Part shown: in pieces, positions 5,985 through 10,627 of the stretch
Numbering within the stretch: the first letter of the stretch is position 1
How the letters are laid out: every line of letters starts with the position of its first letter
From: Halorhabdus sp. BNX81
GTDB lineage: Archaea > Halobacteriota > Halobacteria > Halobacteriales > Haloarculaceae
NCBI RefSeq assembly: GCF_029229925.1
Contig: NZ_CP107254.1
Location: 1,116,001-1,180,000, forward strand
Direction: 5' to 3'
DNA length: 64,000 bases
The notes under the pieces: model-generated
What the model was told of the DNA's origin: nothing
The model's database searches: none
Seen by the model: only the letters and a program-made list of their open reading frames with translations
Program-made: the position numbers and the translations under genes

Positions 5985-6701
5985 TCAGTCGTCGCCGGAC
6001 CCGTATCCGGTCGCGTCGGCGACATCGAACGTTTCCAACGTCCCCAGGCCGTTCAGCGCGATCAGGCCGAAGCCGACCTTGGCCACCACGTCGATGTAGG
6101 TGATGACCAGCGACGCGGTTTCGTTGTCCATGAATCCGTAACCGGTCGGCGCGAGCAGCCAGATGATCGGATAGACGAGCCAGAGCACGATCACGAAGTT
6201 CCGGAGCTTCCGGTAGAGGCCCGCCGTCACGTCGTCGCGCTCCGCTGCGTCCTTGGCGGCCTCGATCACCAACAGGTAGACGACGCCGACGAACGCCAGG
6301 CTGCCGGCGATGAAGAACAGTTCCTTCAACGGCGTCGCGAAGACTGCGCCGAGAAAGCCCAGCACGATCGTCGCTGCCTGCAGCGCCGCGGCTTTCGCGA
6401 TCAGCCGCCGCCCGGCCCCCGCGATGAGTGCGATGAAGACCACGTGCAGCGGCGTCGTCAGCAACCAGTCGACGTATCGCGGGACGAAGAGCTCCGCCCC
6501 GCTCGCCGTCGTGATCTCGCCGATGCCGAGGGCCATCAGTCCGTAGGCGACAGTCGCGATCAGCGTGACCACGACGACGTCGGCGTACTCGCGGTGCCGA
6601 TCGCTCGAGAGAGTGACGAACCCGTAGGCGAGGCCGACGCTGCCAAGCGCCATTCCGAGCGTTCCGAGCGTAAACCAGAGTGTGATGTCGATGTCGATCA
6701 T
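5985..6701 (-). CDS. sop2: Sensory rhodopsin II (phototaxis receptor), seven helices
   Basis: A 238-residue microbial rhodopsin. The retinal lysine is K208 in helix G (DVVAKVGFG); counter-ion D78 and R75 lie in PRYVDWLLTTP; D204 matches BR Asp212. The BR proton-donor position (Asp96) is F89, as in sensory rhodopsins, so it is not a proton pump. Y177 (NpSRII Tyr174) and Y202 (NpSRII Tyr199, transducer contact) are kept. Oddly, A207 replaces the Thr204/Ser that precedes the lysine in characterised SRII proteins; BR has Ala there. The start codon overlaps the stop of htrII by four bases (ATGA), so receptor and transducer are co-translated. Membrane-integral; expected to be a blue-green light repellent receptor by analogy only. 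Confidence 0.9.
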   Translation of the reverse strand: MIDIDITLWFTLGTLGMALGSVGLAYGFVTLSSDRHREYADVVVVTLIATVAYGLMALGIGEITTASGAELFVPRYVDWLLTTPLHVVFIALIAGAGRRLIAKAAALQAATIVLGFLGAVFATPLKELFFIAGSLAFVGVVYLLVIEAAKDAAERDDVTAGLYRKLRNFVIVLWLVYPIIWLLAPTGYGFMDNETASLVITYIDVVAKVGFGLIALNGLGTLETFDVADATGYGSGDD

Positions 6702-8983
6702 GCGTTATCCACCGTTGTTGCTTTTCCGCTGATTCCCGCATCCCCTGTCGATTGCTCGACCTCGAAGCGGTCAAGCAGCGACTGGAGTTCGTCGGCCCGA
6801 TCGAGCAGGTCACCGGCCGAAGCCGTCACTTCCGCGATGGAGTCCGTCTGCTCGTCGGCTGCACTCGCGACCGTGTCTGCTTCCGTGACAGTCTGCTGGC
6901 TAATCGCCGTCAGGTCGTCGACCATCGCCATGACCTGCTGGGCCGTCTCCGCCTGGTCGCCCGTGGCGGCGTCGATCTCCTGGATCCCCTGGTCGGCCTC
7001 CTCGGCGCGCTCGACGATCGTCTCCAGGGAGTCGACCGTCTCGGTCACCGTTTCGACGCCGGCGGCCATCCGCTCGCTGGTCGCCTCCATCGTCTCGACG
7101 GTCTCGCCGGCCTGGGCCTGGATCTGTTCGATTCGCGCCTCGATGTCGCCGGCCGCTTCTTTGGTCTCTTCGGCGAGGTTCTTGACCTCGTCGGCGACGA
7201 CAGCGAACCCTTCGCCGCCGTTCGAATGGGCGGCCTCGATCGAGGCGTTGATCGCGAGCATGTTCGTCTGCTCGACGATCTCGGTGATCACGTCGACGAT
7301 CTCGCCGATTTCGTCCAAGTCGGCGTCCAGATCGTTGATCGCTTGTCTTGTCCGTTCGGTTTCTTCCTCGATCGCATTCATCTCCTCGATCGCATCCTCG
7401 GCCGCCTGGCGACCGGTCTCACCGACTTCGGCCGCCTGCTGGGAGGTCTCGGCGACCTCCTGGGCCGAGCTGGCGACCTCCTCGGCCGAGGCCGAAAGCG
7501 TCTCCATCTCCGCGGCGATGTCCTGGAGGCGCTCGCTCTGCTCGCTCGCACCGTCGAAGATTTCGTCGATGGACTGGCTGACCTGGCGGCTGGCTTCACC
7601 GACGCGATCGGCGTTCCGGCGGACGCTATCACTCGATCGGGAAACCTCGTCGGCGAACGCTTCGACATCGGCGACGGTCGTCTCCAGGGCCTCAAGTGCG
7701 GCGTTGAGTTCCTCGCCGACAGTTGCCATCGCGTCGTTTTCGCTGTCGGGGTCGACCCGCTGGGTCAGATCGCCGTCGGCGACCCGATCGAGCACTTCAC
7801 CGTAGGCAGTCGCCTTCGCTTCCAGATGCGTTGAAAGATCTTCCATCTCAGCGCGCTCGCGCTCTGCATCTTCTCGTGCTGCTTCGGCTTCTTCCTGGGC
7901 TGTCTCGGCCTCGTCGATCTTGGCTCTGAGCGAGTCGCGCATCTCCCCGAAGGAACGATACAGCGTTCCGATCTCGTCCTCCCGCTGGGTCGTGAGATCG
8001 ACCTCGAGATCGCCCGCACCCATCTCACTCGCGCGGCTTGCGAGTCGACGCAGGGAGAGGGCCGTGTTCGAGCCGATCGTGACGCCGATCAGTCCCAGGT
8101 TGATGATCGCGAGCAACACCAGACCCAGCAGATCGGAATTGATCTGCGCAGAGAGGGCGTAGGCCGCGTCGGCCGGCTGTTGGGTCAGCACTGTCCAGTC
8201 GTGGCTATCCATCGCTGTCACCCCCATCACAGTGTCCCCCTGGCGGAGAAACGACCCGTTGGTCGCGTTGGCCGAATCGATCGCCTCGCCGTCGTACGAT
8301 TCGAGAATCTTACTCGCGTTGGGATGGGCGACGTATTGCCCGTTGCCGTCCACCACGACGGTCGATGTCTCCTCGCTCGTCGAGAGGCCCGCCGCCCGAG
8401 ATTCGAGATCGATCATATAGACCAGCGCGCGATCCTCGGCACCCTCGATCGGCGAGAGGACAGCCACGATCGGATGGTCGACGATGGGTACTGAGAACGG
8501 CTGGGAAATGTAGACGTCGTTTGGGCTGTCGAAGGTCGGCGGATCAGTCGCAAATGCCGCGCCCTGATCGGCCGGATTGACGCCCTCCATGGCGTCGCTC
8601 GAACTGGCCAGGAACTGCATGTCGGCCGTATCGAGATAGTGGGCGGCGACGACATCGCCGGGCAGGTCGCCGTCCGCGATCATCCCATCGAGTTCTCGAC
8701 CTATCTGATCGGCGTCACCCGAAGCGAAGACGGGGAGTTTCGTCGTCGTTCTGACGTCTCCCTCGACGGCTGATAGCCACGTTTCGAGTTGATCGGCCTG
8801 TGCATTCGACTGTGTCATCAGCTCCCGTTCGACGTCGTTGCGCAGTTCACCCGACGTCTGGGCACTGATGACCCCACCGAACGCGATCATGATGATCACT
8901 GCGAACGCGAGGGCCACCCCGAGCCGTGCGGTGTACCGTTCGCGCACGAACGAAGGGATTGCTCCGTTGCGTTTCTCTGGCAT
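6698..8983 (-). CDS. htrII: Sensory rhodopsin II transducer HtrII (methyl-accepting protein)
   Basis: A 761-residue transducer. TM1 is about residues 22-42 (LGVALAFAVIIMIAFGG), followed by an extracellular domain of roughly 240 residues with dCache character, TM2 about 287-310, HAMP and a long cytoplasmic coiled coil carrying the signalling hairpin QTNMLAINASIEAAHSNGGEGF and FAVVADEVKNLAEET. Gln/Glu-rich methylation segments flank the tip. The large extracellular domain resembles Halobacterium HtrII, which also senses serine, rather than the short Natronomonas HtrII, so dual light/chemical sensing is plausible. It is the first gene of the unit, with the rhodopsin overlapping its end. An AT-rich element about 25-32 bases upstream (9006-9015) can act as TATA box. 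Confidence 0.93.
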   Translation of the reverse strand: MPEKRNGAIPSFVRERYTARLGVALAFAVIIMIAFGGVISAQTSGELRNDVERELMTQSNAQADQLETWLSAVEGDVRTTTKLPVFASGDADQIGRELDGMIADGDLPGDVVAAHYLDTADMQFLASSSDAMEGVNPADQGAAFATDPPTFDSPNDVYISQPFSVPIVDHPIVAVLSPIEGAEDRALVYMIDLESRAAGLSTSEETSTVVVDGNGQYVAHPNASKILESYDGEAIDSANATNGSFLRQGDTVMGVTAMDSHDWTVLTQQPADAAYALSAQINSDLLGLVLLAIINLGLIGVTIGSNTALSLRRLASRASEMGAGDLEVDLTTQREDEIGTLYRSFGEMRDSLRAKIDEAETAQEEAEAAREDAERERAEMEDLSTHLEAKATAYGEVLDRVADGDLTQRVDPDSENDAMATVGEELNAALEALETTVADVEAFADEVSRSSDSVRRNADRVGEASRQVSQSIDEIFDGASEQSERLQDIAAEMETLSASAEEVASSAQEVAETSQQAAEVGETGRQAAEDAIEEMNAIEEETERTRQAINDLDADLDEIGEIVDVITEIVEQTNMLAINASIEAAHSNGGEGFAVVADEVKNLAEETKEAAGDIEARIEQIQAQAGETVETMEATSERMAAGVETVTETVDSLETIVERAEEADQGIQEIDAATGDQAETAQQVMAMVDDLTAISQQTVTEADTVASAADEQTDSIAEVTASAGDLLDRADELQSLLDRFEVEQSTGDAGISGKATTVDNA

Positions 8984-9142: not shown

Positions 9143-10627
9143 ATGGCGGACGCCGGCGATACGCGGAGTCCAATCGAGACAGTCCAGTCGGTCCTTGCTG
9201 AGCCAGCGGACAGCGCCGATCTCCTGCCGTATCTGGTCGGGTTACTTGACGAAGACGAGTCAGCGGTCCGACTCGCCGGCGCGTTCGCACTCTGCGTGAT
9301 CGCCGTTGCCGACCCCGACTCAGTTACGTATGTCACCGATCGCCTGTCCGATCGCCTCGATACCGACAACGCGGAGGCGGAACTCGTCTTTGAGTACCTC
9401 GCCACGACGTTCCCGCGACGGGTCGATGCGGGACTGGGGGACGGCACCCGCCAGGAGCGTGACGGTCGGGAGAAGACCCAGGGGGACGCGGATGTGCCTC
9501 CGTCCAGGGACTCGCCGACGGACGAAGTCGGGCGGGTTCGGCCGCCGGGTGTTGGCTTCGATCCCCGAAACGTCGAGCCGAACCCGAGCGTCATCGATCC
9601 GGCGGATCCACAGCGTCACGACGATCCATCCCGCGAACAGACTGGGGGTGGATCGGACACCGGTGAGGCGGCGTCGGCCGATGTGGGGGGCCGATCGCCA
9701 CAGCTGAGTACCGCGGATCGGCAGCGATGGAACGAACTGTTCGAACAACTGTCCGATATCGTCGCGTACAGTCGGTTCGACGAGTTGATGATGCTGTCGG
9801 GCCAGCAACGCGGTCGGTACGCCGATGTGGCACGCGTCCTGACGGTTGCCGACGGGAGCGAGCGTGCCCTTGGGATGCGGTTGTTCCACCGGCCGCCGTC
9901 GGACGCCCCGGAGTCGTTCCGTACCGAACTCGGGAACGCACTCGATCGTTGGCAAGGGATCGATGAGCACCCCCACATCGCCACCGTCTTCGACTGGAAC
10001 CGCGCGCCACAGCCCTGGGCGGCGACTGAACTCTTCGAGGCGACGGTCGCCGATCGTGTCGAGCCGGTCGCTCCCGCCGCTGCGTTCGCGATCGCGATCG
10101 ACATTGCCGACGCACTCGCATACGCTCATAACCACGGGGTGGTCCACGGCGGACTCGATCCACATACTGTTGGACTTCCTGGCGTTACAGACGGGCAAGC
10201 CGAGGAGACGGGAGCGACACTCCTCAACGTTGGCCTGCTCGAAGTGTATCGCTTTCACGTCACGCCGGCTTCGTGTCTCGATCCGCGATACGCGGCCCCC
10301 GAGTACTACGATCGGCAGTTCGGCCGGATCGATCACACGACCGACGTCTACCACCTCGGGGCACTCCTTTACCGACTCCTCACTGGTCGACCCCCGTTTC
10401 TCGGCGAGTTCGACGCAGTTCGTGACGACATCTTGAACGCAGCCCCACCGACGCCGTCGCTCCAGACCGACGTCCCGGAGGCCGTCGACAGCGTGGTCAC
10501 CAAGGCGATGGCCAAACGCACGCTCCGGAGATACGAAACGATAAATGACTTGCGGCAGGATCTGGTGCGTGTGCACGACGAGTTAACCGGACGTGGCGGC
10601 GATCGTAAACGGAGTGACCTGTCGTGA
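9143..10627 (+). CDS. HEAT-like / protein pseudokinase
   Basis: A 494-residue protein. Residues about 8-95 are helical and look like HEAT/armadillo repeats (LLPYLVGLLDEDESAVRLAGAF). A Pro/Gly/Asp-rich linker (about 100-190) leads to a Ser/Thr kinase fold at about 200-485, recognised by IAIDIADALAYAHNHGVVHGG, YAAPEYYD (APE), DVYHLGALLYRLLTGRPPF and the C-lobe. Catalytic motifs are lost: the VAIK lysine region reads LGMRLF (M245/R246), HRDLKPEN reads HGGLDPHT (H335, G336, G337), and DFG reads NVG (362-364). It is therefore predicted to be a pseudokinase acting as a scaffold or allosteric partner. It is transcribed divergently from htrII and followed after 81 bases by a seven-helix membrane protein. 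Confidence 0.8.
   Translation: MADAGDTRSPIETVQSVLAEPADSADLLPYLVGLLDEDESAVRLAGAFALCVIAVADPDSVTYVTDRLSDRLDTDNAEAELVFEYLATTFPRRVDAGLGDGTRQERDGREKTQGDADVPPSRDSPTDEVGRVRPPGVGFDPRNVEPNPSVIDPADPQRHDDPSREQTGGGSDTGEAASADVGGRSPQLSTADRQRWNELFEQLSDIVAYSRFDELMMLSGQQRGRYADVARVLTVADGSERALGMRLFHRPPSDAPESFRTELGNALDRWQGIDEHPHIATVFDWNRAPQPWAATELFEATVADRVEPVAPAAAFAIAIDIADALAYAHNHGVVHGGLDPHTVGLPGVTDGQAEETGATLLNVGLLEVYRFHVTPASCLDPRYAAPEYYDRQFGRIDHTTDVYHLGALLYRLLTGRPPFLGEFDAVRDDILNAAPPTPSLQTDVPEAVDSVVTKAMAKRTLRRYETINDLRQDLVRVHDELTGRGGDRKRSDLS

Follow-up and report, generated by a model that had tools for sequence, protein, structure and literature searches.

Alanine in place of the Thr204 hydroxyl in a sensory rhodopsin II of Halorhabdus and its haloarchaeal relatives

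Sensory rhodopsin II (SRII) of haloarchaea mediates repellent phototaxis to blue light. A single hydrogen bond from Thr204, the residue that immediately precedes the retinal-binding lysine, is the usual explanation of how it signals. In NpSRII, the hydroxyl of this threonine bonds Tyr174 and the backbone carbonyls of Leu200 and Asp201, an arrangement held to stiffen helix G (PMC3274258, PMC11992208), and Thr204 also lengthens the signalling state (PMC11992208). A review reports that mutation of either Thr204 or Tyr174 disrupts NpSRII phototaxis, and that bacteriorhodopsin (BR) gains weak signalling activity when that Thr is added (PMC3274258). The receptor and its transducer, HtrII, are joined by two specific bonds, Tyr199-Asn74 and Thr189-Glu43/Ser62, and Thr204 is not conserved among sensory rhodopsins I (SRIs) (PMC3274258).

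Here, we describe a rhodopsin-transducer locus of Halorhabdus sp. BNX81 lying in a window of 64,000 nucleotides (the whole stretch of DNA that was analyzed), in which the rhodopsin carries Ala207 at the Thr204 site. The rhodopsin matched the Pfam family Bac_rhodopsin (E=5.4e-49), its closest solved structure is NpSRII (PDB matches, E 3e-42), and Halorhabdus amylolytica is the nearest named relative by sequence match. Alignment with NpSRII, BR, HsSRI and green proteorhodopsin (PR) equates Ala207 with NpSRII Thr204, BR Ala215, HsSRI Ala204 and PR Asn230. Of the reference sequences behind this mapping, HsSRI and BR each had a 100% match in a genome and NpSRII had one of 98%; the PR sequence is assumed to be correct. 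Residues of the Halorhabdus proteins are given in their own numbering (Table 1), and sites compared across families in that of NpSRII.

Table 1. Coordinates of the rhodopsin, its transducer and the residues discussed, as positions in the window
Feature	Position	Strand	Basis
Sensory rhodopsin, SRII type, 238 aa	5985..6701	(-)	Pfam, PDB matches, tree placement
Lys208, codon AAG, retinal Schiff-base lysine	6078..6080	(-)	translation + alignment
Ala207, codon GCC (= NpSRII Thr204)	6081..6083	(-)	translation + alignment
Tyr202 (= NpSRII Tyr199, contact to HtrII Asn74)	6096..6098	(-)	alignment
Asp192 (= NpSRII Thr189, second HtrII contact)	6126..6128	(-)	alignment
Tyr177 (= NpSRII Tyr174)	6171..6173	(-)	translation + alignment
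Phe89 (= NpSRII Phe86, proton-donor site)	6435..6437	(-)	alignment
His86 (= NpSRII Ile83, BR Leu93, PR Leu/Gln105 colour-tuning site)	6444..6446	(-)	alignment
Thr82	6456-6458	(-)	translation
Asp78	6468-6470	(-)	translation
HtrII-type transducer, 761 aa, HAMP + MCP signalling domains	6698..8983	(-)	Pfam; PDB
Transducer Asn295 (= NpHtrII Asn74)	8099..8101	(-)	alignment
Transducer Ser283 (= NpHtrII Ser62)	8135..8137	(-)	alignment
Transducer Gln42 (= NpHtrII Glu43 position)	8858..8860	(-)	alignment

Lys208, the counterion Asp78 and the Pfam match identify the protein as a type 1 rhodopsin. The residues on which the original prediction was built, namely Ala207 directly before Lys208 together with Tyr177, Tyr202 and Phe89, are all present in the translation and alignment. 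As supporting evidence, only Tyr202 held its value: all 136 htr-linked SRII-type proteins have Tyr at the 199 site, where BR has Val. The 174 site is Tyr in all 208 haloarchaeal rhodopsins sampled, pumps included, so that Tyr177 carries no information, and Phe89 is uninformative because NpSRII itself has Phe at the donor site. The protein differs from a BR-type pump in having Phe89 instead of Asp at the BR Asp96 site and an htr gene upstream, and from SRI in that it does not group with HsSRI and its transducer is not of the HtrI type. As expected of an SRII, it has no Asp or Glu proton donor, a trait that goes with a slow photocycle, and it is linked to an HtrII-type transducer with Asn295 as the partner for Tyr202; it departs from NpSRII in lacking a hydroxyl at the 204 site. 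The only other rhodopsin of the genome is a BR-type pump (L001, G000:C1:1245682-1246392) with Asp at both the counterion and donor sites, a search of the genome returned no SRI match, and CheW homologues and archaellins are present.

The first sequence scan of contigs yielded two relatives only, and whole-genome searches were then used, covering 391 genomes at class level and 146 at family level, with the proteins of the retrieved loci aligned. The best matches were sampled first, so the residue counts below are not population frequencies. In the resulting tree, the protein falls inside SRII and not within SRI, BR or HR. Its SRII branch, of 67 members and with support of 100/100, divides into a sub-branch of 38 members with Ala or Ser at the 204 site (90/85), to which the protein belongs, and a sister sub-branch of 29 members, including a Haloarcula-like genus (g3), with Thr (96/63). 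A 29-row branch had an SH-aLRT value of 100, and the node uniting it with the NpSRII branch had no more than 85.

Whether the Ala is clade-wide was the check proposed with the original prediction, and the answer is affirmative. All seven Halorhabdus genomes encode Ala at the 204 site; the Ala/Ser sub-branch comprises 32 Ala, 6 Ser and no Thr, and the sister sub-branch is uniformly Thr (29/29). Ala also occurs in further SRII lineages (L064; L067/L071/L079/L222; L080/L087/L214), in BR and HR, and in 38 of 38 sampled SRIs, HsSRI included. By the refuting standard given with the original prediction, these results go half way, Ala being clade-wide and also the residue of a proven phototaxis receptor, HsSRI. 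Across 136 htr-linked SRII-type rhodopsins, the split is 56 Thr, 40 Ser and 40 Ala, and the 204 hydroxyl thus does not define the SRII family across haloarchaea. The Ala codons of the branch vary silently (GCG 25, GCC 4, GCA 3), and this rhodopsin gene compared with those of other Halorhabdus gives a dN/dS of ~0.11-0.29, which together indicate that Ala207 is selectively maintained. Ala207 is therefore real and fixed but no peculiarity of this protein, being ordinary in its branch and unusual in comparison with NpSRII. The literature searched, in which most subscription papers were beyond reach and prior notice is possible, contained no description of an SRII with Ala at 204.

Exchanges between Ala and a hydroxyl residue number at least 7 on the wide tree. 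Within the 67-member branch there are at least 5 changes, 1 between the sub-branches and 4 between Ala and Ser, some on poorly supported forks; these ~4 Ala/Ser switches suggest that the 204 hydroxyl is labile. For the root of SRII, three-state likelihood favours Ala, binary likelihood leans the opposite way, and parsimony is tied at 7 vs 7. Because the likelihood result depends on the model and parsimony is tied, we claim no direction, neither a loss of Thr nor its original absence.

The transducer has NpHtrII as its best PDB match (2f95_B, E=1.6e-24), and the end of its gene overlaps the start of the rhodopsin gene by 4 bases, the rhodopsin lying directly downstream. Throughout the Ala/Ser branch, each genome has an htr gene directly upstream of the rhodopsin, and the Asn74 equivalent is found in 37 of 38 members and in 30 of the 31 that combine Ala at 204 with His at the 83 site; this motif was not found in HtrI in the transducer comparison. 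The second SRII-HtrII contact is altered here, with Asp192 for Thr189 and Gln42 for Glu43. The 189 site is Asp, Asn or Gln in the SRII branch of the protein, and Asp in most members. The extracellular region of the transducer (~220 aa, 8140-8860 on the minus strand) shows weak similarity to dCache_1 (E=0.0039, below the cut-off), so that the transducer may sense a chemical besides light. Adjoining the transducer is a gene with a divergent Ser/Thr protein kinase domain (9143-10627, plus strand; Pfam Pkinase, E=8e-10).

We favour the reading that this is a functional SRII-type photoreceptor that works with its own HtrII and signals without the Thr204 hydroxyl, and would put its probability at roughly two thirds. 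What is observed in its favour is that Ala207 is fixed, that the residues of the receptor-transducer contact are intact, that a transducer gene is linked, that selection is purifying and that the genome encodes chemotaxis machinery. With Ala at 207, the Thr204-Tyr174 side-chain hydrogen bond cannot form, and since Ala is fixed in the branch, the light signal must travel from retinal to transducer without that bond. All other features that signalling requires are retained and conserved, and we infer from this that isomerized retinal would push Trp174 and helix F outward, and that the movement would be relayed through the contact between Tyr202 and Asn295 of the transducer, as the SRII model has it except for the Thr hydroxyl. 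More tentatively, His86, at a site that lies beside retinal C15 in proteorhodopsin, might together with Trp174 and position 207 take on some of what Thr204 contributes to tuning, constraint or kinetics; the photocycle is predicted to be shorter than that of NpSRII unless His86 compensates. By analogy, SRI shows that a haloarchaeal receptor is able to work with Ala at 204. Against signalling without the hydroxyl stand the dependence of NpSRII on Thr204, the fact that the His86 association amounts to about one event, and a protein (L238) that joins Asn at the 83 site with Ala. Thr201 (position 198) was considered as a compensating hydroxyl and rejected, as Thr or Ser also occurs there together with Thr204 (L053, L115) and is missing from the Ala-bearing L071 group.

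His86, which the original prediction did not mention, sits at the colour-tuning site, where His is found in 37 of the 38 members of the Ala/Ser sub-branch and Asn in 29 of 29 members of the Thr sister. The other rhodopsins sampled have Leu, Ile or Met, and among all 208 His is confined to the Ala/Ser branch. It is paired with Ala 31 times, with Ser 6 times and never with Thr, and Asn is paired with Thr 29 times and with Ala once (L238). A side-chain triad, Gln105-Trp197-Asn230, has been proposed for blue proteorhodopsin (PMC10807816), and in our alignment these positions map to 83, 171 and 204 of NpSRII, a coincidence that makes a His86-Ala207 link physically plausible. It is possible, if doubtful, that His86 (Asn in the Thr sister) bonds Trp174, Tyr177 or water and so replaces the hydrogen-bonding role of the threonine, keeping the logic of NpSRII with another donor; this would be a special case of the reading that we favour, with which its probability overlaps. 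An independent-pairs test of the 83/204 pairing was without power, there being about one His/Asn event on the tree and the one exception, so the link stays hypothetical. Moreover, the Ala-bearing L071 group and L064 have Leu at the 83 site, and neither His nor any polar residue is thus required for Ala. That a large natural SRII branch signals through a retinal-pocket relay of His86, Trp174 and position 207 instead of the Thr204-Tyr174 bond seems rather unlikely; if it did, a single site would serve both colour tuning and signalling, and the 'essential' threonine would be just one solution among several.

Signalling in the manner of SRI, with Ala204 and a conformational change that is SRI-like in direction or mechanism, perhaps with an attractant response or with a two-photon M state, would fit the uniform Ala of SRIs, of which HsSRI is a proven phototaxis receptor; as Halorhabdus lacks an SRI, the receptor could also cover that role. 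We consider this quite unlikely in view of its position within SRII, of Tyr at 199, where SRI usually has Phe, and of a transducer that is of the HtrII type and carries the Asn74 motif missing from HtrI. The protein might instead be a weak, non-signalling or decaying receptor, or an attenuating one comparable to Haloarcula SRM, which attenuates phototaxis (PMC6450946). Ala at 204 is shared by L188-L191, presumed to be SRM-like, and NpSRII is impaired by Thr204 mutations (PMC3274258), but purifying selection, a transducer directly upstream throughout the branch and the lack of a second sensory rhodopsin in Halorhabdus make this very unlikely.

The original prediction had offered two readings, signalling by another route or an intermediate between pump and sensor. 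The first is the better one, given a position deep in SRII, the linked HtrII contact, purifying selection and the status of sole sensory rhodopsin. An evolutionary intermediate on the way from proton pump to sensor is hardly tenable: BR and HR do have Ala and three-state models place it at the SRII root, but the branch is nested deep within SRII, has no Asp donor, carries Tyr and not Val at 199 along with the other sensor contacts, and an ancestral Ala is unsupported by binary models and parsimony. A better candidate for a pump/sensor mixture than the Ala207 protein, as far as its residues tell, is the htr-linked L073 (G021:C14), with Asp at the donor site (86), Thr204 and Tyr199. Three further htr-linked SRII-like proteins (L080, L087, L214) have Gln for the counterion Asp75, Ala for Thr79 and Ala at 204; their counterion region reads YAQWLLATP or YLQWILATP, and two have very short transducer frames (~443 aa).

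As an entire branch of receptors that are normal in other respects has Ala as its norm, the textbook Thr204 hydrogen bond is probably not the sole way in which such receptors relay light. In a non-random sample, some 30% of the SRII-type receptors with a linked htr have no 204 hydroxyl at all, and gains or losses of this hydroxyl have occurred on several occasions. The protein is a natural SRII variant useful for testing the textbook mechanism, its functional properties being inferred, and the branch supplies natural matched pairs (Ala/His vs Thr/Asn, and Ala vs Ser at constant His) that could separate the roles of the bond in signalling, colour and photocycle length.

Among known systems, NpSRII/NpHtrII shares with this locus Asp75, Thr79, Phe86, Trp171, Tyr174, Tyr199, Asp201 and Lys205, transducer Asn74 and Ser62, and an htr gene directly upstream; here, in contrast, Ala replaces Thr204, His replaces Ile83, Asp replaces Thr189 and Gln replaces transducer Glu43, and the transducer carries an additional extracellular domain. 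The SRII of the Haloarcula-like genus g3 shares the 67-member branch, a similar transducer length and contacts, and Asp at 189, but combines Thr204 with Asn83 where the Halorhabdus protein has Ala and His. HsSRI, the proven receptor, likewise has Ala at 204 and a transducer gene upstream, but differs in Phe at 199, Leu at 83, the type of transducer and the branch of the tree. Blue proteorhodopsin (Gln105) resembles the Halorhabdus protein in having a polar residue at the same site, beside Trp197 and the residue preceding the retinal lysine, but is a bacterial pump with Asn before the lysine, whereas the Halorhabdus receptor has Ala before the lysine and His at the colour site.
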